Virus record (IMG/VR): IMGVR_UViG_3300013131_000148
Span: 1 to 32,011 of that record
Source: a virus
DNA: 32,011 nt
Strand: one strand, 5' to 3'
Part shown: positions 2,147 to 25,534 of the stretch, in pieces
Layout: the number at the start of each line of letters is the position of its first letter
Position numbering within the stretch: the stretch's first letter is position 1
Program-made: the position numbers and the translations under genes
The notes under the pieces: generated by a model
What the model saw: only the letters and a program-made list of their open reading frames with translations
Told to the model about the DNA's origin: nothing
Database searches by the model: none

Positions 2147-4311
2147 ATAAGTACGATGTTGCGCTGCTTGCAAAAGCAGTGCGCGCGCTTGCTCAAGTTT
2201 GCGACGGCGCTGAGTCAACAGACGGAACAGGATTCAACAAACCCGATGCCAGATACGGTACAATGCTTGCGCTTACATCAGAATCAAAATGGAATGATGT
2301 GGTTATTTATGAGGCATGGCGGATGCTTGCCAAATATCAATCACAACTTTCCTCGCTTGGCATAAATTACGACGACATTCCTGCTCCTCGCAGGCCAGAT
2401 AATTTTTCTGTCGGATTCAATGAAATGATTGCCGCAGATGGCGGCTCTGCACGGAATAGCGTTTCCACCAACGGTGAACTGTTTATTATCCGGTGTGAAT
2501 ATGATGACCAATTGATTGATGAGATTCGCAAAATACCCGGAGTATCATGGAATAGTAAAGCACTGGTATGGGTGGCGCCGTTGTCAAGTGAGGCCGAAAT
2601 CGGTAAACTGGTCTCGGAATACAAATTCAACACATCCAAGGAACTCAATCACATGAACATAATGCAACACGAATTGATTGCTGGCGAGCGAAAGATAACC
2701 ACCTCCAAGAGCGGTCGCTTGCTCTTGGATTTTCCGTATCACCCTGATGTGGTGGCGGCAGTAAAGGAAATCCCTGGACGCCTGTGGGATGTCAAGAAAA
2801 GAGTTTGGTCTGTCCCACCGGTCCTTGCAGTTGTTGAGATTGCGGATAGGTACGGATTCTCAATGTCCGAAACCCTGCGCAAGACGCTTCTTACTTCTGC
2901 CGAGCGTGAGGCTGAACTGCTAGAGAAGTCAGCCTCAACTGATGCGGATGTAGAGATTGCAACCCTTTCGGGAACCCTGATGCCGTACCAAAAGGCTGGA
3001 GTTGTTTATGCATCGTCCGTAGGTAGGTGTCTAATCGCTGACCAGATGGGTCTAGGCAAGACCGTAGAGGCCATAGCAACGCTTGAGATGCGAGATGCGT
3101 TCCCGGCGGTGATTGTGTGCCCTGCCTCGCTAAAAGAGAACTGGAGGCGCGAGATAGCAAAATGGCTGCCTCATAGGACGGTCAATGTGGTCTCGGGCAA
3201 AACTGATATTGTCAATGCAGATGTGAACGTGGTGAACTACGACATCTTGTATAAATTTGTGGAGGCAATACAACATCTTGGAGTTAATGGGGTGGTTCTT
3301 GACGAATCCCACTATGTCAAGACTTCTTCCTCCAAGCGGACCAAGGCTGCAAAGGACATTGCGGCAAAGGTTCCAAAGTCTGGCAGCGTGCTGTTGCTAT
3401 CCGGTACCCCTGTTACGAACAGACCATCAGAACTTGTGAGCCAGTTGGAAATCATGGGCATGCTCAGCCGTTTCGGTGGGAAATGGGCTTTCCTGAAGCG
3501 TTATGCCGGTGCTTACCATAACGGGTTCGGCTGGGATACAAGCGGCGCAAGCAACCTCAGTGAACTGAACACCAAACTGCGTCAGAACTGTTATATCCGC
3601 CGCACCAAAGACGAGGTATTGAAAGAACTGCCAGACAAAAGTCGCAACATCGTGCACCTTGAGCCAAGCGGTAAGGGCTACAAGGATTATGCCTCTGCCG
3701 AAGACGACCTGGTGCTATTTCTTAGGGAGCATGGCTATAAGGCAAAAGACTCGTCTGAGCATCTTGCCAGAACCCAGGTCCTGAAGCGCCTTGCTGCATG
3801 GTCAAAGATGGATGCAGTAGAGGAATGGATTGATTCATTCCTTGAGTCATGTGACCGCAAACTGGTTGTGTTTGCCCATAACGTCGATGTCGTAGACCAT
3901 CTTGCAGAAAAGTATGGCAATCTGCGAATCAGCGGCCGCGATACTCTTGAAGAACGACAGGCTGCAGTCGATGCGTTTCAGACTGACCCCAAGGCGCGAG
4001 TCATTGTGCTGAACCTTCAGGCTGGTGGAGTTGGTATTACATTGACAGCGGGTTCTGACGTGGTGTTCGTTCAGATGGGTTGGACCCCAGGCGAGCATGA
4101 CCAAGCCGAAGATAGATGCCACCGAATTGGACAGAAGAATAATGTTCAAGCCTGGTACCTCCTTGCATCGGGAACAATCGATGAAGATATCTACGATTTA
4201 GTAAATGCAAAGCGTGTTGTGGTTGATGCCGTCACTGAAGGTGATGAAATCGAGCAGCAATCTCTTGTTCAGGACCTGATGAGGCGTTTGATGGAGAAGA
4301 AAAGCGACTAG
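2122..4311 (+). CDS. SNF2-family DNA helicase/translocase with two HARP-like repeats
   Basis: A 729-residue superfamily 2 enzyme. Visible motifs: Walker A DQMGLGKT (about residues 306-313), DESH motif II (about 394-397), motif III LLSGTP, and the C-terminal lobe with LQAGGVGITLT and the arginine-finger motif HRIGQ (about 667). Before the motor are two similar repeats (about 118-169 and 198-246) with the pattern hydrophobic-FPYHPDVVAAVKEIPG..WD.K..VW, resembling the HARP modules of SMARCAL1-type annealing helicases. That family rewinds or remodels forked DNA using ATP; the specific role here is inferred. The GTG start overlaps the preceding gene. Unusually, it lies beside lysis and tail genes and not in the replication block. 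Confidence 0.9.
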   Translation: MVDNNRQIDKYDVALLAKAVRALAQVCDGAESTDGTGFNKPDARYGTMLALTSESKWNDVVIYEAWRMLAKYQSQLSSLGINYDDIPAPRRPDNFSVGFNEMIAADGGSARNSVSTNGELFIIRCEYDDQLIDEIRKIPGVSWNSKALVWVAPLSSEAEIGKLVSEYKFNTSKELNHMNIMQHELIAGERKITTSKSGRLLLDFPYHPDVVAAVKEIPGRLWDVKKRVWSVPPVLAVVEIADRYGFSMSETLRKTLLTSAEREAELLEKSASTDADVEIATLSGTLMPYQKAGVVYASSVGRCLIADQMGLGKTVEAIATLEMRDAFPAVIVCPASLKENWRREIAKWLPHRTVNVVSGKTDIVNADVNVVNYDILYKFVEAIQHLGVNGVVLDESHYVKTSSSKRTKAAKDIAAKVPKSGSVLLLSGTPVTNRPSELVSQLEIMGMLSRFGGKWAFLKRYAGAYHNGFGWDTSGASNLSELNTKLRQNCYIRRTKDEVLKELPDKSRNIVHLEPSGKGYKDYASAEDDLVLFLREHGYKAKDSSEHLARTQVLKRLAAWSKMDAVEEWIDSFLESCDRKLVVFAHNVDVVDHLAEKYGNLRISGRDTLEERQAAVDAFQTDPKARVIVLNLQAGGVGITLTAGSDVVFVQMGWTPGEHDQAEDRCHRIGQKNNVQAWYLLASGTIDEDIYDLVNAKRVVVDAVTEGDEIEQQSLVQDLMRRLMEKKSD

Positions 4312-4324
4312 ACCATAGTCCTGC

Positions 4325-4330
4325 TATACG
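4325..4330 (+). promoter_or_regulatory. Possible extended -10 upstream of the lysis cassette
   Basis: TATACG preceded by TGC (4322-4330) lies in the 74-nt gap after the helicase gene and about 55 nt before the first holin-like ATG. No clear -35 is visible, so support is weak. Confidence 0.25.
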
Positions 4331-4385
4331 CATCCTTGGTTGAGACTGTAAGAGGCCGATGTGGCCCTCAACAAAGGAGCGAGTC

Positions 4386-4607
4386 ATGGACAAAAAGAAT
4401 CAGAGCCTGGACCAGGTCATCAAGGGCGGCGCGCTTGGCGTGGTCGTTTATCTTTGCGATAAGTACAACGTCGACCCGACACTGACAGCGTTGTTGATGC
4501 CGCTTGCCGCTTACGCATTTGCTTTGGCAAGCACCAAGATTGGCGACCCGAATGTCGCATCCTTCCTTGCCAAGAAGCCCGAAGCCAAGGAGGCGGCCAA
4601 GAAGTAG
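4386..4607 (+). CDS. Small membrane protein, candidate holin
   Basis: A 73-residue protein with two hydrophobic stretches (GGALGVVVYLC and ALLMPLAAYAFALAS) separated by a short polar turn, and a Lys/Ala-rich charged tail typical of holins. AAAGGAG lies 6-7 nt before the ATG at 4386. It starts the cassette followed by a second membrane protein and the endolysin. By position it could be a holin that permeabilises the cytoplasmic membrane, or one of a holin/antiholin pair. No sequence family is recognised with certainty. Confidence 0.65.
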   Translation: MDKKNQSLDQVIKGGALGVVVYLCDKYNVDPTLTALLMPLAAYAFALASTKIGDPNVASFLAKKPEAKEAAKK

Positions 4608-4619
4608 GTATCGCTACCT

Positions 4620-4658
4620 CGGAGTGTGCGCTCAGTGCGTAAACACTCCGCTGAGCGC
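4620..4658 (+). promoter_or_regulatory. Two mutually exclusive 8-bp hairpins between the holin-like genes
   Basis: Arm a CGGAGTGT (4620-4627) pairs perfectly with a' ACACTCCG (4643-4650). Arm b GCGCTCAG (4628-4635) pairs perfectly with b' CTGAGCGC (4651-4658). The order a-b-a'-b' has no spacer between a and b or between a' and b'. Each hairpin has a 15-nt loop that contains an arm of the other, so only one is likely to form at a time. The element ends 19 nt before the next ATG. Confidence 0.7.
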
Positions 4659-4677
4659 TCACTCTGGCTGAAAGAAG

Positions 4678-4923
4678 ATGGAACTCATCAAAAACGTGAT
4701 ACTACGGATTTTTGCAACATTCGTTGTGACTGGTCTTGGCGTTATCGGCGCAGGCACCATTGCTGGCGTGTCGATGGGGAAGGCCATGTTTATGGCCGGA
4801 ATCGGCGGCGTGGCGAATGTTCTTGAAGGTTTGGCACGCGCGTTTTTGACTGATGGGAAACTTTCTGAAGAAGAAGTCAACGAAGTGTTCAGCAAAGTTG
4901 AGCAAGAAAATCCATCGAACTAG
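4678..4923 (+). CDS. Holin (small phage holin-like membrane protein)
   Basis: An 81-residue protein with a basic N-terminus, two Gly/Ala-rich membrane segments (about residues 8-32 and 37-50) and a charged C-terminal tail (LSEEEVNEVFSKVEQE). This layout matches small holins of Gram-positive phages that sit next to the endolysin. The ribosome-binding site is weak (GAAAG), and the competing hairpins at 4620-4658 lie directly upstream, so its expression may be structure-controlled. The endolysin gene begins 13 nt after its stop. Confidence 0.75.
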   Translation: MELIKNVILRIFATFVVTGLGVIGAGTIAGVSMGKAMFMAGIGGVANVLEGLARAFLTDGKLSEEEVNEVFSKVEQENPSN

Positions 4924-4936
4924 TAGGAGATAGGTA

Positions 4937-5803
4937 ATGTCCGAACTGTACATCAAAAAACTCACCCCGCCAGCCGACGTTTCCGGTCATAAGCCAGGTC
5001 GTTTCCCTGATGCTTTGCTCGCCAAAGTTGACGGTGGTCGCCTTCACTGGCTTGCTGCAAACGCCTGGAAGGCAATGAAGGCAGCCGCCGCGGCAGAAGG
5101 AATGGAACTCAAGCCGACCTCAGCAGGCGACCTTTACCGCTCCTACGACTCGCAACTCAAGGTTTTTCTTGAGCGTTATCAAAAAGAGCCGATTGCCGGT
5201 GCCAGCACTCGCACGTTTGAAGGTGTGAAGTGGTACAAGAAGTCAGAGAAACTGGCCAGCCTTGCTGCGCCTGGTACCTCGCAGCACAATAGCGGTTTGG
5301 CCATAGACGTGCATACAGCAAGCGGCGACCGTCTCAAGTGGATGGTTGCTAACTGCGCAAAGTTTGGTTTCAGTTGGGAAGTTGTCCCAGAAGAACCATG
5401 GCATATTCGTTATACGGAAGGCGATAATGTTCCGGAAGCCGTTAAAGCGTGGATGGCTGCAAATCCAGCAGAAGTCTGTGCTCCTGGCGCTGCAGCACCG
5501 GCCCCGCAGCCTGCGGCTTCACCCGCCCCTGCAGCACCTGCCTCTGTCCCTGCTGGGAATGCAAATGCCGCAGTTAAACGTGGAAAAGCAAACGCTGCTG
5601 CAAATCCAGTTCTTCAACTTGGTTCAAAGGGTAGCGCTGTTCGCACATTGCAAGAACTCCTGAACAAAGCAGGAATTAAGTGTGCAACCGACGGTGATTT
5701 CGGTCCAAAGACTCAAGCAGCGGTGAAAGAATTTCAAAAGAAAGTTGCTCTTCCTGAAAGTGGAATTGTTAACCACAAGACATGGGCGAAGGTAAATCCA
5801 TAG
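4937..5803 (+). CDS. Endolysin: VanY-type D-Ala-D-Ala carboxypeptidase with peptidoglycan-binding domain
   Basis: A 288-residue lysin. The N-terminal catalytic domain (about residues 35-165) has the LAS-peptidase signature SQHNSGLAIDV with zinc ligands H117 and D124, and the EPWHIRY motif with H156. These enzymes cut peptide bonds in peptidoglycan stems or cross-links. An Ala/Pro-rich linker (about 183-208) leads to a PG_binding_1 domain (about 225-287: VLQLGSKGSAVRTLQELL, then DGDFGPKTQAAVKEFQ). There is no signal peptide, so release through the preceding holins is expected. A good AGGAGA site precedes the ATG. Confidence 0.93.
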   Translation: MSELYIKKLTPPADVSGHKPGRFPDALLAKVDGGRLHWLAANAWKAMKAAAAAEGMELKPTSAGDLYRSYDSQLKVFLERYQKEPIAGASTRTFEGVKWYKKSEKLASLAAPGTSQHNSGLAIDVHTASGDRLKWMVANCAKFGFSWEVVPEEPWHIRYTEGDNVPEAVKAWMAANPAEVCAPGAAAPAPQPAASPAPAAPASVPAGNANAAVKRGKANAAANPVLQLGSKGSAVRTLQELLNKAGIKCATDGDFGPKTQAAVKEFQKKVALPESGIVNHKTWAKVNP

Positions 5804-5889: not shown

Positions 5890-6447
5890 ATGGCTGCAAA
5901 TAATTCCACAATCTCATTTGACGTGCATGACTGCAAGGTCTATCCCGTCACTGCAGATGTTGCTGGTGGCATCACTTACGGCGCGGCCGTTGATGTCCCT
6001 GGCATTCAGGAAGTTTCGGTTGAGCCGAACTTCATCAGCGTTGAGTTGAAGGGTGACGGAAAGGTCCTTGCCAAGAAAGGTAAGGTCGACCGTTTGAACT
6101 TCTCAGCAACCTACAGCGAATTGAGCCTCCCGGTTCTTGCAACGCTGTTCGGTGGCTCAGTTGCAACAGGTGGTGCGGGTTCGGCAGAGACTGCGGCATA
6201 CGAGTTCGATGGCGACAGCCTCCCGTACTTCAAGGTTGAAGTGCTCGTGAACGACCTTGAGAGCGACCTCGCCGAAATGGTGTTTGTCCTCAACAAGTGC
6301 CAAATCACTGGTGGCACGATTATGTCGGGCTCGACGGACAACTTCTCGACACCGTCGTTCGACGCAGAGGCAATCCTCCCGACAGCGACTGGCCTTGGTT
6401 TTGGCACAGTCACCTTCCGCGAGTCTTCCACTGGTCTTTCGGAATAA
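5890..6447 (+). CDS. Major tail (tube) protein
   Basis: A 185-residue, beta-rich protein of typical tail tube size, with conserved-looking segments such as FISVELKGDGKVLAKKGKVD and a C-terminal strand region. Position is the main support: it precedes the tail assembly chaperone and tape measure genes, the invariant order in siphoviruses. A strong AAAGGAG lies 8 nt before the ATG, and a long hairpin follows the stop, both fitting a highly expressed structural gene. Tube subunits stack as rings around the tape measure protein. Confidence 0.8.
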   Translation: MAANNSTISFDVHDCKVYPVTADVAGGITYGAAVDVPGIQEVSVEPNFISVELKGDGKVLAKKGKVDRLNFSATYSELSLPVLATLFGGSVATGGAGSAETAAYEFDGDSLPYFKVEVLVNDLESDLAEMVFVLNKCQITGGTIMSGSTDNFSTPSFDAEAILPTATGLGFGTVTFRESSTGLSE

Positions 6448-6463
6448 TAATTAAATAGTTCTG

Positions 6464-6509
6464 CTGGCGCACGCCAGCCTTGAGACTGTGTGTGGTCTCA
6501 AGGCTGGCG
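6464..6509 (+). terminator. 15-bp hairpin, possible terminator with an alternative upstream stem
   Basis: A perfect 15-bp stem (6472-6486 with 6495-6509) closes an 8-nt TGTGTGTG loop. There is no T-run, only TTTGCG, so it may attenuate, protect the 3' end of the tube mRNA, or need a factor. A competing 6-bp hairpin, CTGGCG (6464-6469) with CGCCAG (6472-6477), uses part of the same left arm. Confidence 0.65.
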
Positions 6510-6533
6510 TTTGCGCGTATCCGGGGTGGTGTG

Positions 6534-6539
6534 TAGTCT
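6534..6539 (+). promoter_or_regulatory. Possible leaderless promoter -10 (TAGTCT)
   Basis: TAGTCT fits TANNNT and ends 6 nt before the ATG at 6546, the spacing expected when transcription starts at the start codon. No ribosome-binding site is visible for that ATG. Leaderless genes are common in Actinobacteria. Confidence 0.35.
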
Positions 6540-6545
6540 GTTCAT

Positions 6546-7073
6546 ATGGACTATTCACCAGTAATACTCAAAAACAAAGGCATCCCTTGCGAGTTCGTCA
6601 AGACCCAGAAAGTTGGGGAATCTTGGGAGCGTGTACTTACAGAAAGTGGGGAAGTCGAAAAAATCAGTTATAACATTAAATTCACCAATAATGTTATTTC
6701 AGATGTAGAACTTCATTTTGGTGGACTTGAAGCGTGGCAGGAAAAATTAGAAAAATTTCCAACTACGACAATACGCCAAACCCTGTCTTTTGTATTGGGA
6801 AAAGATGTTTTGGAAGTTGGAGAAGCCATGCTCGATGGCGAGGTGGTGATGTACTCAAATATTGTAGGGACGGCGTGGTCTATAGCCAACGGCGTGGACC
6901 CTACGATAGCGAGTCGTATGCTGCTGCAGAGCGTAGGGCTCGCAAACGAACAAAGGCAATTGCTAAACGAGGAACTCGGGAAGAGTCTAGAAAAAATCGA
7001 TTCCTCCCTTGGGCTGAGTGGTACGGGCTCTGGTCCCAAACGAGCCAGCCGCTCCAAGAATTCTGGGAACTAA
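6546..7073 (+). CDS. Tail assembly chaperone, short form (lambda gpG-like)
   Basis: A 175-residue protein between tail tube and tape measure genes, the fixed position of tail assembly chaperones. The N-terminal part is beta/alpha mixed, followed by a helical region (about residues 75-150), then a Ser/Gly-rich tail. These chaperones coat the tape measure protein before tube polymerisation. The -1 frame stays open past this stop to 7189, right up to the tape measure gene, so a longer frameshifted product is expected. No ribosome-binding site is clear at the ATG; a leaderless start is possible. Confidence 0.75.
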   Translation: MDYSPVILKNKGIPCEFVKTQKVGESWERVLTESGEVEKISYNIKFTNNVISDVELHFGGLEAWQEKLEKFPTTTIRQTLSFVLGKDVLEVGEAMLDGEVVMYSNIVGTAWSIANGVDPTIASRMLLQSVGLANEQRQLLNEELGKSLEKIDSSLGLSGTGSGPKRASRSKNSGN

Positions 7074-7189
7074 GCCCAGCCCAAGTTGGATGCGTTTTTG
7101 AAGCAAAAGGCTGGATGAAAAAGCGCGCAGGCGCTGAACAATTAATGGCCTTTGCTGCTTCAATGGGAATGCAGGTTAATCAAAAGTAG
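6995..7189 (+). CDS. Tail assembly chaperone extension reached by -1 frameshift (gpGT-like)
   Basis: The -1 frame encodes NRFLPWAEWYGLW...MGMQVNQK (64 residues) and has no suitable start of its own near its beginning. A run of six A (6991-6996, in frame GAA AAA ATC) would let the Lys tRNA on AAA slip back one base. That gives a product of about 150 + 64 = 214 residues sharing the N-terminus of the 6546 gene. Programmed -1 shifting at this location is well known in siphoviruses; the precise slip point is inferred and is not a textbook X XXY YYZ heptamer in the zero frame. Confidence 0.55.
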   Translation, partial: NRFLPWAEWYGLWSQTSQPLQEFWELSPAQVGCVFEAKGWMKKRAGAEQLMAFAASMGMQVNQK

Positions 7190-7237
7190 ACGTTTTTGCA
7201 GTTTGCGTATTTGACAGCCTTGTGAGAAAATATCTGC

Positions 7238-10200
7238 ATGCCAGCGTCCGGAACAGGTGGGGTTCCCCCACTTAACGTCTCTATCCGCATCACGACAAGT
7301 GGTGCGCGCGCTGCCGCATCTGCAATGGGCTCCGTAACAAGAGCGTCTGGCGGAATGTCAAGAGGAATGACTGCTGGCGTAATTTCGGCAAGAACACTTG
7401 GTGATGCAATGCGAATGAGTGCATCGCTTATGAAATATACGGTTGCCGGAGCCTTTATGAAGGTTGGCACCGCCGCCGTTCAAGCGGCTAGAAACTTTGA
7501 ACTTTCGTTCTCGCGTATTCGCGGTCTTACCGGAATGGCTGCTGATTCTGTTGAGAGCATGAAAGCAGGCGTTTTGGAAATGGCGACTGCAACGACTCGC
7601 GGTCCAGAAGAACTGGCTGAAGCACTCTACTTCGTCACTTCATCAGGTTTGCGTGATACTGATGTCGCTATGGATGTTTTGAACGCATCGGCAAAAGCAT
7701 CCGCTGCTGGCCTTGGTGAGACAAAGACTGTCGTTGACGCTGTTACGTCAGCAATGAATGCTTATGGTCCGGCAAATTTAAGTGCGGCCCGTGCAACCGA
7801 CGTCCTCGTTGCAACAGTACGTGAAGGTAAAGCAGAAGCCGACACATTTGCACCAGCCTTCTCAAAGGTTCTGCCAGTCGCAGCCGCATTCGGTGCATCA
7901 TTCGAAGACGTTGCGGCAGCAATGGCAGCACTTACACGTTCTGGTATGACTGCCGGGACCGCAGGTATTTATGTGCGTCAGGTCTTGTCCCAGTTGCTAA
8001 AGCCGTCAAAGCAAGCATCCGACATGTTGGCTCAAGTGGGGACAAGCGCAGAACAAGTGCGAGACAATATCCGCGAAAAGGGAATGTTTGTTGCGCTGCA
8101 GGAACTCTCTACGCGGCTTGGCGGAATTGACGAAGGCGCTCCAGCATTTGCAAAAGTATTTGGAAACGTTCGCGCTCTTACCGCAATGCTTCAGTTGGTT
8201 GGTCCTGCCGCAGCAGAAAATGAACTGGTTTTTGAACGTCTACAAAATTCAACAGGTGACTTGTCTGTTGCGTTTGAGGCATATGAAGAGACCATAGATG
8301 CCCAATTTAATAAAGCACTTGCTGCGAGCCGAGTTGCATTGATTGAAATCGGAGATGCCATCAAGCCAGTTGTTACAACTATTTTGAAAATTGCGACTGG
8401 TTTTGCAAAAGTAGCGAAAGTCGTATTGGACAATCCACTTGGCAAGGGAATTCTGACTGTTGTCGCAGGTTTCACACTTCTTGTGGTTTCTATGTCCGCA
8501 GCAATGCAAACAACTTCAGCGCTTATCCGTCTATTTGCAAACATGACAATTACTCTTACTGGAAATCAAATTATGTATAATGCGACAACAAAATCTTTGT
8601 ACCGTTATAGTGGTGCAGCAACAACTGCTGCTGCGTCTACGCATACGCTGACAGTTGCCGGAAGAACATATACAAAAATGTCAATCACTATGGCTGGTGG
8701 AATAAAGAAAGTTGCGCTTGCTCTTAAGGCATTGGTTGCGGCAAATAAAGTGATGCTTGCAATAGTTCTTACGATAGCCGCGGGAATGGCAATATTTAAG
8801 TTTTTTGAAAAAGCATCGAAAAAAGCCAAGGAGGTTTCCGAAGGCGTTTCAAAGATTACTGACATTATGGACGAGGCTGTAAAATTTGCAAAAACCACGT
8901 TTGCCGTCGATGTATCTACAAATCTTGACGACACAGAAACGGCAAATGCAGTAGAAAGAATTGGTGAACAAATTGAAGAAATGTCACCTGGATTTGTCAA
9001 AAAAGTAAAGGGAGTGTTCGAGAACGCTGGTGAAGAGAGTGGCATTCAGTATCTCAATGCGTTAATGAATTCAGTATTCGGCGGAATGACTGAAGATACA
9101 AAAGAAAAATTGTTGGCTTATTTCATGGAAGAGTTCAACATCAAAGAAGAGCAATGGGCTGAGGTTCTTGGCTTTGAAAACATCTCTGGCGATGCAGCAA
9201 CAGACGCTTTTTTGCAATCAGCAGTTCTTGCAGCAGCGGGCGCAGAAGAAGTATTTGCTGATGCAATGACTGCAAAAGGTGGCGCCGGTTTCATCAACAT
9301 GTTTGACCAAATTGCGGAAGAGACGCAGGCAAGTTTTGACAAACTGGAACCTAGTTCATCTAAGACGCGAGCAGCAATGAAGGAATATGGCAATGCGATA
9401 ATTGACGGAGTAACACAAACAGAAGGGTCACTGCAGCCGTTGTTGCTGACCATAAAACAACTTGATGAAACCGGAAGTCTCACTGCCAACAATCTTGACA
9501 ACATATTTGGTAATGCGCTTCATCAACTTGCTGGTGACCTAAATATTGCAAAAGAAGAAAACGCAGACTTTTATGAGATATTTAAGCATGGCGACAATAA
9601 AGACGCCTTAACAAAAATGATTCAGCAGACAACGGGTCTTGGGACCGCGGCGGCTGCAGTTAAATATCAGAATATAAAGAACGAAATTATTGCTATGAGT
9701 AAAACTACTCCATACCTAGAGCAATCCGCCGCCGCCGCCAGGATTTTGGTTAAAGAACTGGGCGGGTCATTAGAAATTTCAGAGGACATCGTTACGGTGA
9801 ATGCTGATGCCGCCGAGTCATATTCTTTGCTGCGCGACGAAATCAAAAATAGCATCGAAGCGTACGCCGAGCAAAAAAATGTAATGAAACAACTTGAAGA
9901 TGTGCAGCGTTCGCTTTTGGGGATTAATCTGACCCAGGAAGAATCGCTTAGGGATGTCTATGACGCATTCTCGGATTTGCGAGATGGAGTTGCTGACGGT
10001 GGTGGATTCAATATTGTGACCGAAGCCGGTCGCAAGAATCGCAAAGAACTGCAGTCCGCAGCAGAGGCAGTAGCCGAGTATGCCAACACCGTTTATGCCG
10101 AAACAGGCGATGCAGCCATGGCTGGTCTTAAGTTCCAAGAAGGGATTATGGGCATTATTGCCAATTCCGGAGCAAAAGGAACAGAAGCGCAGCAACTGCT

Positions 10201-12097
10201 TGTGGATATGGGTTTTACGCCCGATTGGTACGCAAAGTCGCTTATAGCAGGAGAAGAAGAGGTAACTCAACAATCAACAAATATTGGAAAGAACGTCATG
10301 GATGGCGTTTCTATGGGTATTAATGCCAATGCCGCCAATTTGTCTCAAACTCTTATTACAGCCCTTAGGGGAGTACTTATCACGGCGGAAGGAGCACTCG
10401 GAATTAGTAGTCCATCAAAAGTTACTGCCGAATCACTTGGTATCCCAATGGCTCAAGGTGTTGGTGCTGGATTCAAAAAGGAATTGAAAAATCAGAGCGG
10501 TGGAATGGCCAAAGACTTGAATACCGCAGTTTCCAAAATGTATACAGGGAAATACGACCAAAAGAGTGTTCAAAAGTTTTTCAAGAACTTTCTTGAAAAA
10601 AAGAAACAGGTCGAGACGCCAGCACAAGATTTTGTAAAGGCAACTATTGGGCGCATGAAGGAGATTATTGGCTCGTTGGGCAACTACATTAAGTCACAAC
10701 TTAGTTTCCGCGATGCTCAAGCAAATCTTGCCAAGTTAATTAACATGCAGCGCAAGTACGATGATGACCGCAAAAAGTCAGCCCGCGCCGTACAATATGC
10801 CGAAACGCGACGCGGACGTTCTGGAGGCGCTGAGGTAACTGGCTATGAGCAAGCAGAACTAGACCAATTACAAATTGAGTTTGAGCGAGTTTCTAGGGAC
10901 TACGCAATGGGTCGTGCATCATACATAGAACTTGTCGATGCAGAAATTGCTTTGTTTGAGGCTCGCGCTGCCGCAACGGAAATAAATGATGAAGTGATAT
11001 CTTCTCAAAACGATTTTATTGACAAATCAGTAGCGGTCGAAAATAAAAACCTTGAACTTGCGGCCGCAACTGTTGATGTTTTGGCTGCTTATCAAGATGT
11101 TCAAGAGGCATCATATGAACTATATATCAATCATAAAGAACTTGAAGGCGTTTATCAATCGCTTGCTGTCGCAACCGGAATAGCAAGCGGGAAAATCGTT
11201 GTTGGTAGTAAAGATTTGAGCACACTTGGAGAAGATGTTGGCAAACTTGGCGGGTATACGTCAACCGTTGGTGGTTATGTTTCGACACTTGGAAATAATG
11301 TCAGCGTAACTGGACAATCATTCACTACGCAGTTTTACGGACCAAACGGAATCTTTGGCACAATAACCAAAACTGGTGTCAATGTGAAAACCCTGACAGA
11401 TTCAATAGGTGCAAGTTTCACCGACATGTCTCGCGGGCTTCTTGACCCGAATAGCGAAATGTATAAGAACCTGAAGTCCTTAGGACCGGCTATTTTTAAC
11501 GCCATACAAACAGCGGCAAATGAACGGTTTGCAACATCGCCTCTTCATCTTCATATACCGGTAAACGTAACAACAAGCGTTACAGGCGGTGGTGGTAGCG
11601 CGACCGTAACAGACCCTTATAAGGCCTTGACATATGACCAATTTGCACAAAATAACAGAGCAGGAATTCAGGCTTCATTACTTAATGCATACAGGGCAAG
11701 CCTGCAAGGCGGACAGTATCAAGGGGTAAATGTAAGCGCCGCGGTTGCCGCATATGGGAGTACGCCAGGATATTTTGCCGCAGTTGACAAAGCCCTTCAG
11801 GCAGCGTACGCAAGGTATCTTGCTACAAGGGCAGTTGGTGGCCCCGTCAGCGCAATGAATCCATATCTTGTTGGTGAGCGTGGACCTGAAATGTTCGTTC
11901 CGAATACCTCTGGAACAATCGTAACTAATTCAGCACTTGAGCGATATACCCGTACGCGAACAACTGGGGCAGACAAGAATGGCGCTAGCCCATCTAATAA
12001 TATTGTCGTCACCGTCAATAACCCAGTCCCAGCAGCGGCAGAAGATTCAATTACTCGTCGCATGAAGGTCCTGGCCAACAGCGGACTGTTCGGGTGA
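7238..12097 (+). CDS. Tail tape measure protein
   Basis: A 1619-residue protein, the longest gene in the window. Residues about 95-310 match the tape measure (PhageMin_Tail/TP901) core, including TSSGLRDTDVAMDVLNASAK and MAALTRSGMTAGTAG. Hydrophobic segments at about 400-430 and 500-525 are typical, and SSPSKVTAESLGIPMAQGVG (about 1055) is the usual SPSK motif. Long helical stretches follow, and the C-terminus has GGPVSAMNPYLVGERGPEMF, common at tape measure ends. It sets tail length and helps DNA pass the membrane. The ATG has only a weak upstream site; its N-terminus is Gly/Ser/Arg-rich. Confidence 0.95.
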   Translation: MPASGTGGVPPLNVSIRITTSGARAAASAMGSVTRASGGMSRGMTAGVISARTLGDAMRMSASLMKYTVAGAFMKVGTAAVQAARNFELSFSRIRGLTGMAADSVESMKAGVLEMATATTRGPEELAEALYFVTSSGLRDTDVAMDVLNASAKASAAGLGETKTVVDAVTSAMNAYGPANLSAARATDVLVATVREGKAEADTFAPAFSKVLPVAAAFGASFEDVAAAMAALTRSGMTAGTAGIYVRQVLSQLLKPSKQASDMLAQVGTSAEQVRDNIREKGMFVALQELSTRLGGIDEGAPAFAKVFGNVRALTAMLQLVGPAAAENELVFERLQNSTGDLSVAFEAYEETIDAQFNKALAASRVALIEIGDAIKPVVTTILKIATGFAKVAKVVLDNPLGKGILTVVAGFTLLVVSMSAAMQTTSALIRLFANMTITLTGNQIMYNATTKSLYRYSGAATTAAASTHTLTVAGRTYTKMSITMAGGIKKVALALKALVAANKVMLAIVLTIAAGMAIFKFFEKASKKAKEVSEGVSKITDIMDEAVKFAKTTFAVDVSTNLDDTETANAVERIGEQIEEMSPGFVKKVKGVFENAGEESGIQYLNALMNSVFGGMTEDTKEKLLAYFMEEFNIKEEQWAEVLGFENISGDAATDAFLQSAVLAAAGAEEVFADAMTAKGGAGFINMFDQIAEETQASFDKLEPSSSKTRAAMKEYGNAIIDGVTQTEGSLQPLLLTIKQLDETGSLTANNLDNIFGNALHQLAGDLNIAKEENADFYEIFKHGDNKDALTKMIQQTTGLGTAAAAVKYQNIKNEIIAMSKTTPYLEQSAAAARILVKELGGSLEISEDIVTVNADAAESYSLLRDEIKNSIEAYAEQKNVMKQLEDVQRSLLGINLTQEESLRDVYDAFSDLRDGVADGGGFNIVTEAGRKNRKELQSAAEAVAEYANTVYAETGDAAMAGLKFQEGIMGIIANSGAKGTEAQQLLVDMGFTPDWYAKSLIAGEEEVTQQSTNIGKNVMDGVSMGINANAANLSQTLITALRGVLITAEGALGISSPSKVTAESLGIPMAQGVGAGFKKELKNQSGGMAKDLNTAVSKMYTGKYDQKSVQKFFKNFLEKKKQVETPAQDFVKATIGRMKEIIGSLGNYIKSQLSFRDAQANLAKLINMQRKYDDDRKKSARAVQYAETRRGRSGGAEVTGYEQAELDQLQIEFERVSRDYAMGRASYIELVDAEIALFEARAAATEINDEVISSQNDFIDKSVAVENKNLELAAATVDVLAAYQDVQEASYELYINHKELEGVYQSLAVATGIASGKIVVGSKDLSTLGEDVGKLGGYTSTVGGYVSTLGNNVSVTGQSFTTQFYGPNGIFGTITKTGVNVKTLTDSIGASFTDMSRGLLDPNSEMYKNLKSLGPAIFNAIQTAANERFATSPLHLHIPVNVTTSVTGGGGSATVTDPYKALTYDQFAQNNRAGIQASLLNAYRASLQGGQYQGVNVSAAVAAYGSTPGYFAAVDKALQAAYARYLATRAVGGPVSAMNPYLVGERGPEMFVPNTSGTIVTNSALERYTRTRTTGADKNGASPSNNIVVTVNNPVPAAAEDSITRRMKVLANSGLFG

Positions 12098-20042: not shown

Positions 20043-21362
20043 ATGCCAGACAATATTCGCGTTGAAACCGAAGTCGTAGACATCACCAGTCTTAAGCCTT
20101 ATCCAAAAAATCCGCGTCGCGGCGACGTAGATGAGATAGCACAGTCACTCAAGGTAAATGGCCAATACAAGCCAATTGTCGTAAATAAGCGCGACCAGAC
20201 CATTCTGGCGGGCAATCACACGTGGAGAGCAGCCAGAAGCCTTGGGTGGACCCATATTGCCGTTAGTTATGTAGATGTTGATGACTATGGTGCTCAGAAG
20301 ATTGTTCTTGCCGATAACAGAACTTCTGACATGTCTACTTATGACGACACAAAACTTCTTGAATTGCTTGAGTCACTTCCAAGCCTTGACGGGACAGGAT
20401 TTAAGGCGGTTGACCTCGAGCAACTACAAACTTTGATTGACGGCGAAGGCGCTTTTAGCGCACCAAATGAAGGGCGCACAGGCAAAGTTGGAAATGAAAT
20501 TCGTGTATGTGTTGGAACGTACCGCGCGATGGTTGATGACGATGTCTACAAAGATTGGGCAGATGGACTTATTGAGGTTCACGGCGATGACGAAGCGGTG
20601 CTCAAGGAATTGAAGCGCCGCCTGCGTCTCTCCAGCGTTGATTACATCCCGGCCGAACGACCCAAAGGCAAGAAGCCAAAACGCAATATTGACCGCCAAC
20701 AAATGCACTCAGTGATGCTCACGACAGAGAATGTCGATATCAACAGCGTCTTCCCATATCCGATGAATGCCAGACAAGGCGATGTCGGGCTCATATCTGA
20801 ATCACTAGCAAAGAATGGGCAGTTCAGACCAATCGTTGTGAACAAGCGAGACAACTCGATTCTTGTTGGAAACCACACATGGAAAGCAGCCAAAATGCTG
20901 GGCTGGAAAGAAATAGCAACCACATTCATTGACGTGGATGACGAAGCGGCAGCAAAGATTGTTCTTGCAGATAACCGCACCGCAGACCTGGGCTCATACG
21001 ACCATGTCGAACTTGCAGAGATTCTTCAAACCCTTCCCGCATTTGAGGGGACTGGGTACGACGGTGACGACCTCGACGAACTCATGCAGGAGGTTGCAGG
21101 TTGGGGCATCAAGGAAAAACAGACAAAGGTTTCCGATAAACCACGAAACGTGACTGCCACAATCGGCAAGTGGGAGTTCAAGATGGCTCCGGAATATTTC
21201 TCTGAGTGGGAAGAAAAGATGTTCCAAGAATTCGGATATTCGCTAGAAGAAGTATGCGCTGGAATGGTGGCGATGCTTGGCTTGCCCAGTGACGCGTATG
21301 TGGCAACACGCCAGAGAAACTCTAAGAGAAGTAGCCCAAGGCGCACAGCACAAGAGTCATGA
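20043..21362 (+). CDS. Tandem-duplicated ParB-like protein
   Basis: A 439-residue protein made of two copies of one module. Copy 1 (about 1-215) and copy 2 (about 225-425) each start with a ParB/sulfiredoxin-like domain: PYPKNPRRGDVDEIAQSL, PIVVNKRDQTILAGNHTWRA, then KIVLADNRTSD in copy 1, and PYPMNARQGDVGLISESL, GNHTWKA, KIVLADNRTAD in copy 2. Each ends with a similar helical segment (W...L...G......L.L). The box GNHTW(R/K)AA replaces the chromosomal ParB GERRxRA. Phage ParB-like domains may bind DNA, act as nucleases or hydrolyse nucleotides; which applies here is unknown. The stop overlaps the next start (ATGA). Confidence 0.85.
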   Translation: MPDNIRVETEVVDITSLKPYPKNPRRGDVDEIAQSLKVNGQYKPIVVNKRDQTILAGNHTWRAARSLGWTHIAVSYVDVDDYGAQKIVLADNRTSDMSTYDDTKLLELLESLPSLDGTGFKAVDLEQLQTLIDGEGAFSAPNEGRTGKVGNEIRVCVGTYRAMVDDDVYKDWADGLIEVHGDDEAVLKELKRRLRLSSVDYIPAERPKGKKPKRNIDRQQMHSVMLTTENVDINSVFPYPMNARQGDVGLISESLAKNGQFRPIVVNKRDNSILVGNHTWKAAKMLGWKEIATTFIDVDDEAAAKIVLADNRTADLGSYDHVELAEILQTLPAFEGTGYDGDDLDELMQEVAGWGIKEKQTKVSDKPRNVTATIGKWEFKMAPEYFSEWEEKMFQEFGYSLEEVCAGMVAMLGLPSDAYVATRQRNSKRSSPRRTAQES

Positions 21363-22906
21363 AGCCAGTCCTGACGCCGATTGGAGACTTGTCTCCGTCC
21401 GCCTACAACCCGCGCAAGGCAGACGCAGAGAGACTTGACCTTGTTGAGTTGTCTCTGCGCAAGTTTGGATGGCTTTTGCCTATTTATGCGGATGTCAACG
21501 GAGAGATTCTGAGTGGACACCAACGCCACCTGGTTGCTGGTCGCATCGGCGCAACGAAGGTTCCGGTTGTCAGGGTTCCGGTGTTCAAGGTGGACCGACG
21601 TATGGGCATCAACGTCTTATACAACCGTGCTACTAATGACATGTACAAAACACGCTCGACTAAAGAACTCAAGAGCGATTTGCTTGACCGGATTGAAGAC
21701 ATCAACAAAATCAAAGCGCTGCCGGATATACCGGTCGACTCCCCGGAATGGTATCCAATCTTCAATCAAAAGCCTGTCGCCACATTGCGTCTGGCTAAAC
21801 TCAACGAGCGCTGGCCAGAAGCCCACGCAGTACAAATGGCCTCGTACCTCAAGTCCAACGGTCTTCCGCAACTCCCTCTCATCTGCACCCCCGATTACAA
21901 GGTATTGAACGGTCTGGCGCGACTGACATTTGCAATCCAAGAAAGTTGGGACACCTGCAATGTCGTTATGGTCGGACACGAGAACGCAGAGCAGATAAAG
22001 GCGATGCTCAACCTTCTGACGATGGACTACAACATCCAAGAGCGCTATGAGGATTTGCTGCGCTATAACTCCTTCCGACGCAAGAACCAGCGTCAGACCG
22101 CTCTGTCGACTGTGTTCGTGGAGGAGATGGTTCGTCACTACATAAATACCGGCAACCGCGTAAGAGCATTCCAACTTGAGAATCCTCAGCATGTAGAGAT
22201 GTGGAAGAAGTACTACGGGACTCACGTCATTGACTTCGGAGCGGGCCTTTGTGACAAGACAGAAATTCTGTGCGGCATCGGAGTCGACGCCGTCGCATTC
22301 GAGCCTTTCTTTCTCGGGAAGGACAACGAGAACATCGACACCCAAGGAGCGCGCAAACTCACTGCAAAGTTCCTTGAACGAGTCGCTGATGGAACAGAAT
22401 GGGACAGCATCTTTATTTCCCATGTCTTTAACAGCGTTCCGTTCCTTCAGGACCGTTTGCACATTATGGCAATCATCGCGGCTCTTTCTTCAGAGAACAC
22501 AAAGTGTCATTCGGTCGCCGTGTCTTCCGAATCTGACCGCTGGTATAACCACACGCGCGGAGACCTTAAAAAGAGTCATGACACCTCAAGTAGGGGTTTT
22601 ACATTGGATTACGAACCGCGAACAGTTCTATCGGATATTGCCCTGAAACCCAAGGTGCAGAAGTATCACACCGAAACAGAGTTTGAAGAACTGCACATGC
22701 ACGGATTCAAGAGCGTAGAAACATTCATGACCGCAAAGAGCGGCTGCGTTCAGGCAGTTGCGTGGAATGCCAAGAAGGTTGAGCCCGATGCTTTGCGCGC
22801 CGCCCTTGAGTTCGAGTTTGACGTTCCGCATCCAGAAGGTCGAAGGCTTGGCATGGCAGAAGAAGCCAAAGCAGCATTCTCACAAAGGCTTGGCATAAAA
22901 CTATGA
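21359..22906 (+). CDS. ParB-ParB-methyltransferase fusion
   Basis: A 515-residue protein. Residues 1-80 are a ParB-like domain (YNPRKADAERLDLVELSL, EILSGHQRHLVAGR). Residues about 140-207 look like a second, diverged ParB domain (ASYLKSNGLPQLPLICT, KVLNGLARLTFAI). From about 288 a class I SAM-dependent methyltransferase fold begins: HVIDFGAGLCDKTEIL is motif I, DAVAFEPFF the acidic loop and IFISHVFNSVPF a motif IV-like strand. The usual DNA methylase motifs (DPPY, PCQ) are absent, so the substrate cannot be assigned. It is coupled by 4-nt overlaps to the upstream ParB gene and the downstream CmoA-like gene. Confidence 0.82.
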   Translation: MKPVLTPIGDLSPSAYNPRKADAERLDLVELSLRKFGWLLPIYADVNGEILSGHQRHLVAGRIGATKVPVVRVPVFKVDRRMGINVLYNRATNDMYKTRSTKELKSDLLDRIEDINKIKALPDIPVDSPEWYPIFNQKPVATLRLAKLNERWPEAHAVQMASYLKSNGLPQLPLICTPDYKVLNGLARLTFAIQESWDTCNVVMVGHENAEQIKAMLNLLTMDYNIQERYEDLLRYNSFRRKNQRQTALSTVFVEEMVRHYINTGNRVRAFQLENPQHVEMWKKYYGTHVIDFGAGLCDKTEILCGIGVDAVAFEPFFLGKDNENIDTQGARKLTAKFLERVADGTEWDSIFISHVFNSVPFLQDRLHIMAIIAALSSENTKCHSVAVSSESDRWYNHTRGDLKKSHDTSSRGFTLDYEPRTVLSDIALKPKVQKYHTETEFEELHMHGFKSVETFMTAKSGCVQAVAWNAKKVEPDALRAALEFEFDVPHPEGRRLGMAEEAKAAFSQRLGIKL

Positions 22907-23625
22907 CAGTCAAAGATAACTACATACCTACTGGCAAATGGAAGTTTGATGAGAACGTCACTGCGGTATTCCCTGACATGATTTCCCGTTCAATTCCTGG
23001 TTATGGAACTATGCGTGATTCTGTCGTCAGGGTTGCCAAGAAATTCCTGAACTTACAAGAAAGCGGCCTTTACTTACTTGATATCGGCTGCTCCCGCGGC
23101 GACACTATCTACGAGATACTTGACTCTCTTGACCCCATGGTTGAGGTTGGTTGTATTGGTGTTGATTCTTCTGAGGACATGATTCTTTCCGCAGAGCATC
23201 TTTTCCGAGAGTGGGACAACGTCAGTTTTGTGTGTGGCGATGTCACCAACATGGACATTGTGCCGTGCAAATATGCGGTCATTACGTCGGTATTGACGGC
23301 GCAATTCATTCCGCTCGATGTTCGTCAGGAATTCTATAAGAATGTTCATAATGGTCTTTCTCACGATGGCGTTTTTATTGTTGTGGAGAAAGTACTAGGT
23401 GAGACACCCACTTCGCAGGGTTTGCTAGTTGACATTTATCACAACTACAAAAGCGAAAAGGGTTACACAGACGAGCAGATTGAGCAGAAGCGAAAGTCAC
23501 TCCAAGGAGTCCTTGTCCCATTGCGCGCCTCCGAGAACGAGGCGATGCTCAAAGATGCAGGCTTCAACAATGTTCAGCGCTTCTGGCAGTGTCTAAATTT
23601 TGCCGGGTGGATGGCTACAAAATGA
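22903..23625 (+). CDS. cmoA: CmoA-like carboxy-S-adenosyl-L-methionine synthase
   Basis: A 240-residue protein matching CmoA along its whole length. The N-terminal signature W-x-FDE-x-V-x-x-VFPDMI-x-RS-x-PGY is present (residues 13-34), motif I is LLDIGCSRGD (58-67), and the CmoA-specific C-terminal region includes YHNYKSEKGYTDEQIEQKRK and RFWQCLNFAGWMATK. R197 aligns with the E. coli Arg199 that holds the carboxylate of carboxy-SAM. CmoA converts SAM and prephenate to carboxy-SAM, used by CmoB to make cmo5U in tRNA of mostly Gram-negative bacteria. No CmoB is in the window; the coupled upstream gene is a ParB-methyltransferase fusion, a candidate user of the product. Confidence 0.9.
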   Translation: MTVKDNYIPTGKWKFDENVTAVFPDMISRSIPGYGTMRDSVVRVAKKFLNLQESGLYLLDIGCSRGDTIYEILDSLDPMVEVGCIGVDSSEDMILSAEHLFREWDNVSFVCGDVTNMDIVPCKYAVITSVLTAQFIPLDVRQEFYKNVHNGLSHDGVFIVVEKVLGETPTSQGLLVDIYHNYKSEKGYTDEQIEQKRKSLQGVLVPLRASENEAMLKDAGFNNVQRFWQCLNFAGWMATK

Positions 23626-24946: not shown

Positions 24947-25534
24947 ATGACATCAATCAAAAAAGAAAAAGTTAGAACGCAAAATCAAAGGCGCGAACTT
25001 GGCGCATTTACTGCGCCACCCAAAACGCGCGTGTTCGTTCCTCAAGACGTTTTTTTACAGAACAACAAGTACTTGATGGACAAGGTCGTTGAGCCGCCTC
25101 GCAGTGGTTCATGCCAAGGCCAAGATACGAGCCTTTGGTTCCCAATTTCAAACAATGGTGTTTATGGCAAGGCAAACACTCAAAAACAGAGAATGGCAAT
25201 TGATATTTGTAGAGAATGTCCCGTTAAGGCGGAATGCCTTATGTACTCACTTGAATATGAACCGTTTGGCATATGGGGTGGTTTGCCCGAAAGTGCCCGC
25301 GCGTTATTGGCTCGATTTTGGAAAATTGAGAACAAAAGAACTTGGTGCGTTCGTCCTTCCTTCTTGAAGTATAGGAAGGTTGTCGACTATATTGTCCATC
25401 CGACGGATATCAAGTTGATAAAGGACATCGCACGTGAGCAAAATCTTGCACAACCACCTTTTAATGAACGGGCAGGCTTATCAGCCACCGCGCAGCGTCG
25501 AGTCCGTCTCGGATTGGCTGACACAACTAGTTGA
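24947..25534 (+). CDS. whiB: WhiB-family iron-sulfur transcription regulator
   Basis: A 195-residue protein with the four-cysteine WhiB pattern: C56, C88, C91, C97 (C-x31-C-x2-C-x5-C), followed by the GIWGG turn at 108-112. These bind a 4Fe-4S cluster and act with the primary sigma factor; phage versions can alter host transcription and division. It is longer than usual WhiB proteins at both ends: a 50-residue basic/Gln-rich N-terminus and a C-terminal extension with FKVVDYIVHPTDIKL-type helices and AQRRVRLGL. The C-terminal region is also dual-coding, since the next gene starts 101 nt before this stop. AGGAG precedes the ATG. Confidence 0.9.
   Translation: MTSIKKEKVRTQNQRRELGAFTAPPKTRVFVPQDVFLQNNKYLMDKVVEPPRSGSCQGQDTSLWFPISNNGVYGKANTQKQRMAIDICRECPVKAECLMYSLEYEPFGIWGGLPESARALLARFWKIENKRTWCVRPSFLKYRKVVDYIVHPTDIKLIKDIAREQNLAQPPFNERAGLSATAQRRVRLGLADTTS

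Follow-up and report, generated by a model that had tools for sequence, protein, structure and literature searches.

The operon at positions 20043-23625 of the IMG/VR virus record IMGVR_UViG_3300013131_000148 is, at a probability we place near 0.6, a phage carboxymethylation cassette. In this cassette a CmoA homologue would form carboxy-S-adenosylmethionine (Cx-SAM), and the product of the preceding gene, a fusion of two ParB-like domains with a methyltransferase domain, would then use the cofactor, with phage DNA as the likeliest acceptor. We refer to the 515-residue fusion, a member of PHROG 5475 (function unassigned), as FusMT, and to the whole 32,011-nucleotide stretch of DNA analyzed here as the window. 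The proposal is supported by sequence and comparative evidence, namely the identity of CmoA, its cofactor-binding residues, the operon structure, the strict association of the two genes, the mutual exclusion of FusMT and the C5 carboxymethyltransferase CmoX, and the absence of CmoB.

Carboxymethylation of phage DNA by way of CmoA is itself already published, and what is new here is only FusMT as the partner enzyme. In the system described in December 2025 from Synechococcus phage S-B43, phage DNA comes to contain 5-carboxymethylcytosine and the glycine amide of this base through a phage CmoA, the ligase CmoY, and CmoX, a C5 carboxymethyltransferase (PMC12783734). The survey in that work began from CmoX and recorded proteins with ParB domains in many of its contigs; its authors reported no candidates for an N6-adenine or N4-cytosine carboxymethyltransferase. 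The original prediction for the present locus, made from the sequence alone, had proposed that CmoA and the fusion may jointly carboxymethylate phage DNA or another acceptor; the pairing with the fusion has been strengthened by the analysis below, while the general idea of such carboxymethylation was known already. No report of a FusMT-CmoA pairing was found in the open-access literature searched.

The phage CmoA homologue

A profile search with the product of 22903-23625 returned TIGR00740 as a full-length family match (E=2.6e-45, residues 11-240), bearing out the predicted identity as CmoA. The nearest solved structures by sequence were YecO of Haemophilus influenzae (1im8, 2e-35) and Escherichia coli CmoA (4gek, 1.4e-28). 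The AlphaFold2 model (pLDDT 89) led to the same proteins, with 1im8 and 4gek/4iwn as the top Protein Data Bank matches in Foldseek at TM ~0.85. The score of 154.9 bits lies below the curated equivalog cut-off of 193.3 bits for TIGR00740. SpCmoA, a phage enzyme proven biochemically, scores only 115.6 bits, and the cut-off therefore appears to fit the cellular enzymes and is not decisive here.

In E. coli CmoA, Arg199 forms a salt bridge with the carboxylate of Cx-SAM, and further contacts with the cofactor have been listed (PMC3663124). R197 of the window protein aligns with Arg199, and eight of the twelve further contacts are kept (Y34, D60, G62, S64, D88, D113, F135, and E162), the changed positions being A70T, N90S, I118V, and N132V. 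The loss of carboxylate-binding residues, named beforehand as grounds for abandoning the prediction, is thus not seen in the alignment. The arginine had also been offered as one of the grounds for a strong prediction of carboxy-SAM synthesis. Its position was correctly assigned, but it does not decide the matter: SpCmoA has glutamate in this column, with an arginine four residues further on, and Arg199 is therefore supportive without being a requirement.

Conceivably, the 240-residue protein derives from CmoA but forms a SAM analogue other than Cx-SAM, or acts as a plain methyltransferase. The score below the equivalog cut-off, the valine at position 132, and the FusMT-linked homologues that lack Arg199 would all be compatible with this. 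We nonetheless regard it as very unlikely, as the window protein outscores the proven SpCmoA, keeps Arg199, and shares a clade with members linked to C5/CmoX-type enzymes. As far as sequence can indicate, the prediction that the protein makes Cx-SAM is well supported.

Several distant homologues depart further from the family. Short CmoA homologues in several distant cassettes (L043, 10090-10737; L044, 9509-10153; L048, 1996-2649) have KELSLSGVQRP where KRxSLEGVLVP is usual, with glutamate in place of Arg199 and a new arginine eight residues on; in these the arginine that binds the carboxylate has possibly shifted, or a different SAM derivative is involved. A 5.5-kb open reading frame of Maribacter phage Panino (L066, 3852-9341), annotated as a tRNA methyltransferase, contains a weakly CmoA-like stretch (E 4e-4), and may represent a giant phage protein with a CmoA inside it.

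Domains and conserved residues of FusMT

FusMT matched PHROG 5475 at 1.1e-88, and its N terminus matched PHROG 620, a ParB_N-type repeat, at 9e-20. A second, degenerate ParB repeat matched the first with a probability of 97% in profile-profile comparison, in agreement with the order of strands and helices in the AlphaFold2 model (pLDDT 85). Among 19 FusMT relatives, Pfam ParB_N was detected in 17 and Methyltransf_23 in four. Searching Foldseek with the model returned the ParB relative Noc, together with class I SAM methyltransferases such as CcbJ and ToxA. FusMT therefore has both a ParB-type domain with the P-motif arginine and a SAM-methyltransferase domain, the combination that marks ParB-methyltransferase fusions, and the predicted ParB-ParB-methyltransferase architecture was recovered in full. 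For the ParB repeats there are matches among ParB domains that elsewhere form fusions with DNA methylases.

Alignment of 66 relatives revealed invariant YNPR and SGHQR motifs in the first ParB-like domain and invariant N184, G185, R188, and R235 in the second. The methyltransferase domain carries motif I as DFGAG, along with E315, the invariant R366, E419, K432, and Q434. Across the whole protein, little or no variation was seen in SGHQR, R235, R241, E315, R366, E419, K432, and Q434. Profile comparison of the methyltransferase domain with CmoA gave no significant match (2.4% probability); one local alignment placed a KPKVQK segment near the Arg199 segment of CmoA, which we take as a hint only. 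A defense system was also considered and rejected, as the PADLOC matches were all partial, covering a Mad2 methyltransferase domain and the ParB domains of type II methylases.

FusMT and CmoA are encoded together

CmoA lies directly 3' of the fusion in 13 of 13 close contigs, and it is also beside FusMT in every full-length phage relative at greater distance, including those of Gordonia phage Evaa, Aeromonas phage HJ05, and Pseudomonas phage SM1. All but two of the full-length FusMT relatives with enough flanking sequence have an adjacent CmoA. Prophage loci in bacterial genomes were then counted with a CmoA profile built without any FusMT partner, and CmoA was found beside FusMT in 46 of the 48 testable loci, three further loci ending at a contig edge. 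The prophage hosts come from about nine phyla (Verrucomicrobiota, Lentisphaerota, Bacillota, Bacteroidota, Pseudomonadota, Thermodesulfobacteriota, Chloroflexota, Cyanobacteriota, and Sumerlaeota). Four loci that share the ParB domain alone had no adjacent CmoA. The survey of adjacent CmoA and ParB-methyltransferase genes suggested with the original prediction thus came out in its favor, and the coupling of Cx-SAM synthesis to FusMT is well supported by these genomic comparisons.

A small gene of PHROG 32036 often lies between the fusion and CmoA (L104, 9517-9969; L040, 8621-9073; L055, 2633-3115, minus strand). Its product appears HAD-like by eye from an N-terminal motif and has no Pfam match; the gene was not seen beside the pair in the window.

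FusMT and CmoX-type enzymes replace one another

We fetched 160 IMG/VR contigs with two kinds of phage CmoA. FusMT was present in 58 and a C5 methylase in 81, none had both, and 21 had neither. After clustering at 80% identity, the 21 clusters comprised 10 with FusMT only, nine with C5 methylase only, none with both, and two with neither (Fisher p=1.9e-4). The FusMT phages Evaa, HJ05, and SM1, whose genomes are complete, contain no C5 methylase, and such an enzyme is found in six of seven other CmoA phages (S-B43, Y3, PaBG, TurkishDelight, SscS-F1, and an SPbeta-like phage).

When 56 CmoA proteins were placed on a tree, the partner was seen to switch 12 times, at least seven of the changes being forced by well-supported branches, and the partner label clusters no more than in shuffles. 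The window CmoA itself falls in a clade whose other members adjoin C5/CmoX-type enzymes. This repeated change of partner indicates that the same synthase works with either enzyme. The best reading of these comparative data is that FusMT would consume Cx-SAM in replacement of CmoX.

Search for other users of Cx-SAM

Neither CmoX nor CmoY in canonical form was found elsewhere: C5 methylase (PF00145) was absent from the window and 12 related contigs (13 records, including contigs of 77-106 kb), and the AsnS-type amide ligase CmoY (PF00733) was absent from 16 records of the window clade, the window itself being a fragment. N6/N4 methylase (PF01555) was rejected as the Cx-SAM user, with none in the 15 records searched, among them the window and the long close contigs. 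CmoB (PF08003) was found neither in the window, nor in four related contigs of 77-106 kb, nor in three phage genomes with the cassette. The original prediction had noted its absence and had named a CmoB gene elsewhere in the phage as the alternative explanation for CmoA; the wider search upholds the former and gives the latter no support.

These results bear on whether CmoA acts in tRNA wobble modification (cmo5U) and adjoins the ParB fusion by chance. Cellular CmoA is known for this role, and PHROG 4752 is annotated as a tRNA methyltransferase. We rejected this role as exceedingly improbable, since neither CmoB nor tRNA genes were found: the 32-kb window has no tRNA gene, the phages searched lack CmoB, and so do 13 of 15 lysogen host genomes, where CmoA therefore cannot serve cmo5U. 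A chance neighbor is also at odds with the retention of FusMT in the prophage loci counted above.

Another possibility is that FusMT is an ordinary SAM-dependent methyltransferase and that the Cx-SAM made by CmoA feeds a different, unseen enzyme. Use of Cx-SAM by FusMT is after all inferred, and several partner CmoA proteins lack Arg199. This explanation is distinctly unlikely when set against the long contigs searched without finding CmoB, C5 methylase, or N6/N4 methylase, against the adjacency of FusMT and CmoA in almost every locus across some nine phyla, and against the exclusivity with CmoX, which is hard to explain unless FusMT consumes Cx-SAM.

Individual genomes gave further observations. 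Alcaligenes phage Afa-NA1 (L061, PV550095.1) encodes a CmoA with Arg199 in a 78-kb genome without C5 methylase, and no fusion adjoins the gene; 2.5 kb downstream of CmoA the genome encodes an adenine N6 methylase of the D12 class (5971-6723 and 9196-10515), making the phage a possible candidate for N6-adenine carboxymethylation. In Paracoccus sp. MKU1 (L284), the fusion and CmoA are preceded at a distance of ~2.6 kb by a distant AsnS/CmoY-like open reading frame (3840-5318), a hint that attachment of an amine may also be a function of some FusMT cassettes. A DAHP synthase gene (PF00793, 1e-49) is found in Aeromonas phage HJ05 (L056, OQ594355.1) at 6257-7420, four genes after the fusion and three after CmoA. 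The enzyme is the entry to the shikimate pathway, which leads to prephenate, the co-substrate of CmoA. This was the sole case in 26 records, none of which had chorismate mutase, and phage-borne prephenate supply was rejected as a general feature.

Gene organization and other features of the window

The overlapping genes for FusMT and CmoA announced in the original prediction are both present and share 4 nt as ATGA, and an identical ATGA overlap joins FusMT to the gene before it (Table 1). That first gene encodes a 439-residue protein which matched Pfam ParB_N in two stretches (2.7e-17) and PHROG 8071 (3.7e-101), and close relatives likewise have a double-ParB_N open reading frame upstream of the fusion. 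The three-gene operon is situated 3' of replication-initiation and helicase-loader-like genes and 5' of a gene for a RusA-like resolvase.

Table 1. Positions of the operon genes and of features within them, numbered along the window
Feature	Position	Strand	Basis
Double ParB_N protein, 439 aa, first operon gene	20043..21362	+	Pfam ParB_N, PHROG 8071
FusMT, ParB-ParB-methyltransferase fusion, 515 aa	21359..22906	+	PHROG 5475, model, Foldseek
First ParB-like domain of FusMT, residues ~1-120	21359..21718	+	PHROG match; invariant motifs
Second, degenerate ParB-like domain of FusMT, residues ~132-240	21752..22078	+	profile-profile match, model
Class I SAM-methyltransferase domain of FusMT, residues ~276-471	22184..22771	+	model, Foldseek, conservation
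Phage carboxy-SAM synthase CmoA (predicted), 240 aa	22903..23625	+	TIGR00740; 1im8/4gek
Arg197 codon of window CmoA (= E. coli CmoA Arg199)	23491..23493	+	alignment

A WhiB gene is located at 24947-25534. WhiB regulators are otherwise an actinobacterial family, and the gene suggests an actinobacterial host for the phage. The predicted product of 49-1626 in the window contains an extended run rich in threonine and repeats of acidic residues, after which comes a hydrophobic segment close to the C terminus.

Comparison with known systems

The window operon resembles the S-B43 system in having a phage CmoA as the source of Cx-SAM, a dedicated transferase encoded adjacently, frequent ParB-domain neighbors, and no CmoB. 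The transferases differ, however: CmoX of S-B43 has a C5-methyltransferase domain with an SPPC motif and Arg350, whereas FusMT lacks both PF00145 and SPPC. S-B43 also has CmoY, and none was found in the window clade. With E. coli CmoA/CmoB the operon shares the CmoA fold and Cx-SAM residues, and CmoB is likewise a class I enzyme without C5 or DPPY motifs; the window locus differs in lacking CmoB, and FusMT bears ParB domains. Other phage ParB-methyltransferase fusions (PHROG 498; ParB-N6/N4 and ParB-Methyltransf_23, PMC12704722) similarly join a ParB-CTPase fold to a methyltransferase in phages and prophages. FusMT differs from these in having a pair of ParB repeats and a methyltransferase domain of a distinct kind, and its link to CmoA is almost obligate. 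The PHROG 5475 members of Gordonia phage Evaa (gene 2) and Pseudomonas phage SM1 (SM1_052) share the family and the ParB/fusion/CmoA-like gene order, but their partner CmoA homologues lack Arg199.

Proposed pathway and its weak points

In the proposed pathway, the window CmoA would convert SAM and prephenate to carboxy-SAM, as do bacterial CmoA and the CmoA of phage S-B43. FusMT would bind carboxy-SAM in place of SAM and pass the carboxymethyl group to an acceptor, filling the place that CmoX has in other phages as a different class I enzyme. The Cx-SAM-binding residues of CmoB are K91, Y200, and R315 (PMC4482062), and by analogy with these and with R350 of CmoX an invariant basic residue of FusMT should bind the carboxylate, R235, R241, R366, and K432 being candidates. 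The two ParB-like domains, along with the separate double ParB protein, probably bring FusMT onto DNA, and for this reason phage DNA is the likeliest acceptor. Binding of Cx-SAM by FusMT, DNA as the acceptor, and protection of the phage genome from nucleases by the modification are inferences.

Several points weigh against the proposed pathway. FusMT, throughout its 515 residues, has neither the PC motif of C5 methylases nor a DPPY-type motif of amino methylases, nor even a PP dipeptide; the original prediction had rightly stated that the standard DNA methylase motifs are lacking. Its methyltransferase fold is nearer to small-molecule enzymes, and DNA methylases are absent among the top Foldseek matches. 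Asn132, which binds the methionine part of the cofactor in E. coli CmoA, is valine in the window CmoA and leucine in SpCmoA. In several lineages the partner CmoA homologues have alanine, asparagine, threonine, or glutamate in place of Arg199, and such FusMT-CmoA pairs might use another SAM derivative. The mutual exclusion has exceptions among distant relatives, with a C5 methylase near four FusMT loci, two in phages (L040 and L042) and two in prophages (L241 and L242). The choice of queries biases the CmoA surveys, though the survey that started from FusMT agrees with them. Finally, the window is a fragment, and the absences reported here lean on longer relatives.

The structural neighbors bear on a further alternative, in which FusMT would carboxymethylate a target other than DNA (RNA, protein, or small molecule) and its ParB domains would act as an NTP-binding switch or a scaffold. 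CcbJ, ToxA, and UbiE-like small-molecule enzymes are indeed the closest to its methyltransferase domain, and ParB folds can bind ATP, CTP, or GTP without a role in segregation (PMC12704722). We consider a non-DNA acceptor unlikely, given that FusMT swaps repeatedly with CmoX, a DNA enzyme, that its ParB repeats have their counterparts in fusions with DNA methylases, and that the operon sits amid replication genes and a resolvase gene.

With DNA as the acceptor, the product would be expected to differ from 5-carboxymethylcytosine, because FusMT has no C5 cysteine or DPPY motif, and with the catalytic motifs of both C5 and amino methylases missing, a base nitrogen or oxygen would be a likelier position than C5.

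The FusMT-CmoA pair looks like a second, widespread phage route to carboxymethylated DNA. The odds are about even that FusMT founds a second natural family of DNA carboxymethyltransferases, unrelated to CmoX, acting at a non-C5 position (a base nitrogen or oxygen) to give an undescribed modification, and spread through the phages and prophages of some nine bacterial phyla. If so, two unrelated phage enzymes would spend one rare cofactor, swapping beside its synthase, and natural DNA would contain a new carboxymethylated base, filling the gap left by the 2025 study, which found no non-C5 candidates. PHROG 5475 would gain a function, and a new tool for placing a carboxylate handle on DNA would be at hand. 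It would thereby become possible to test directly what one class of ParB-methyltransferase fusions does.

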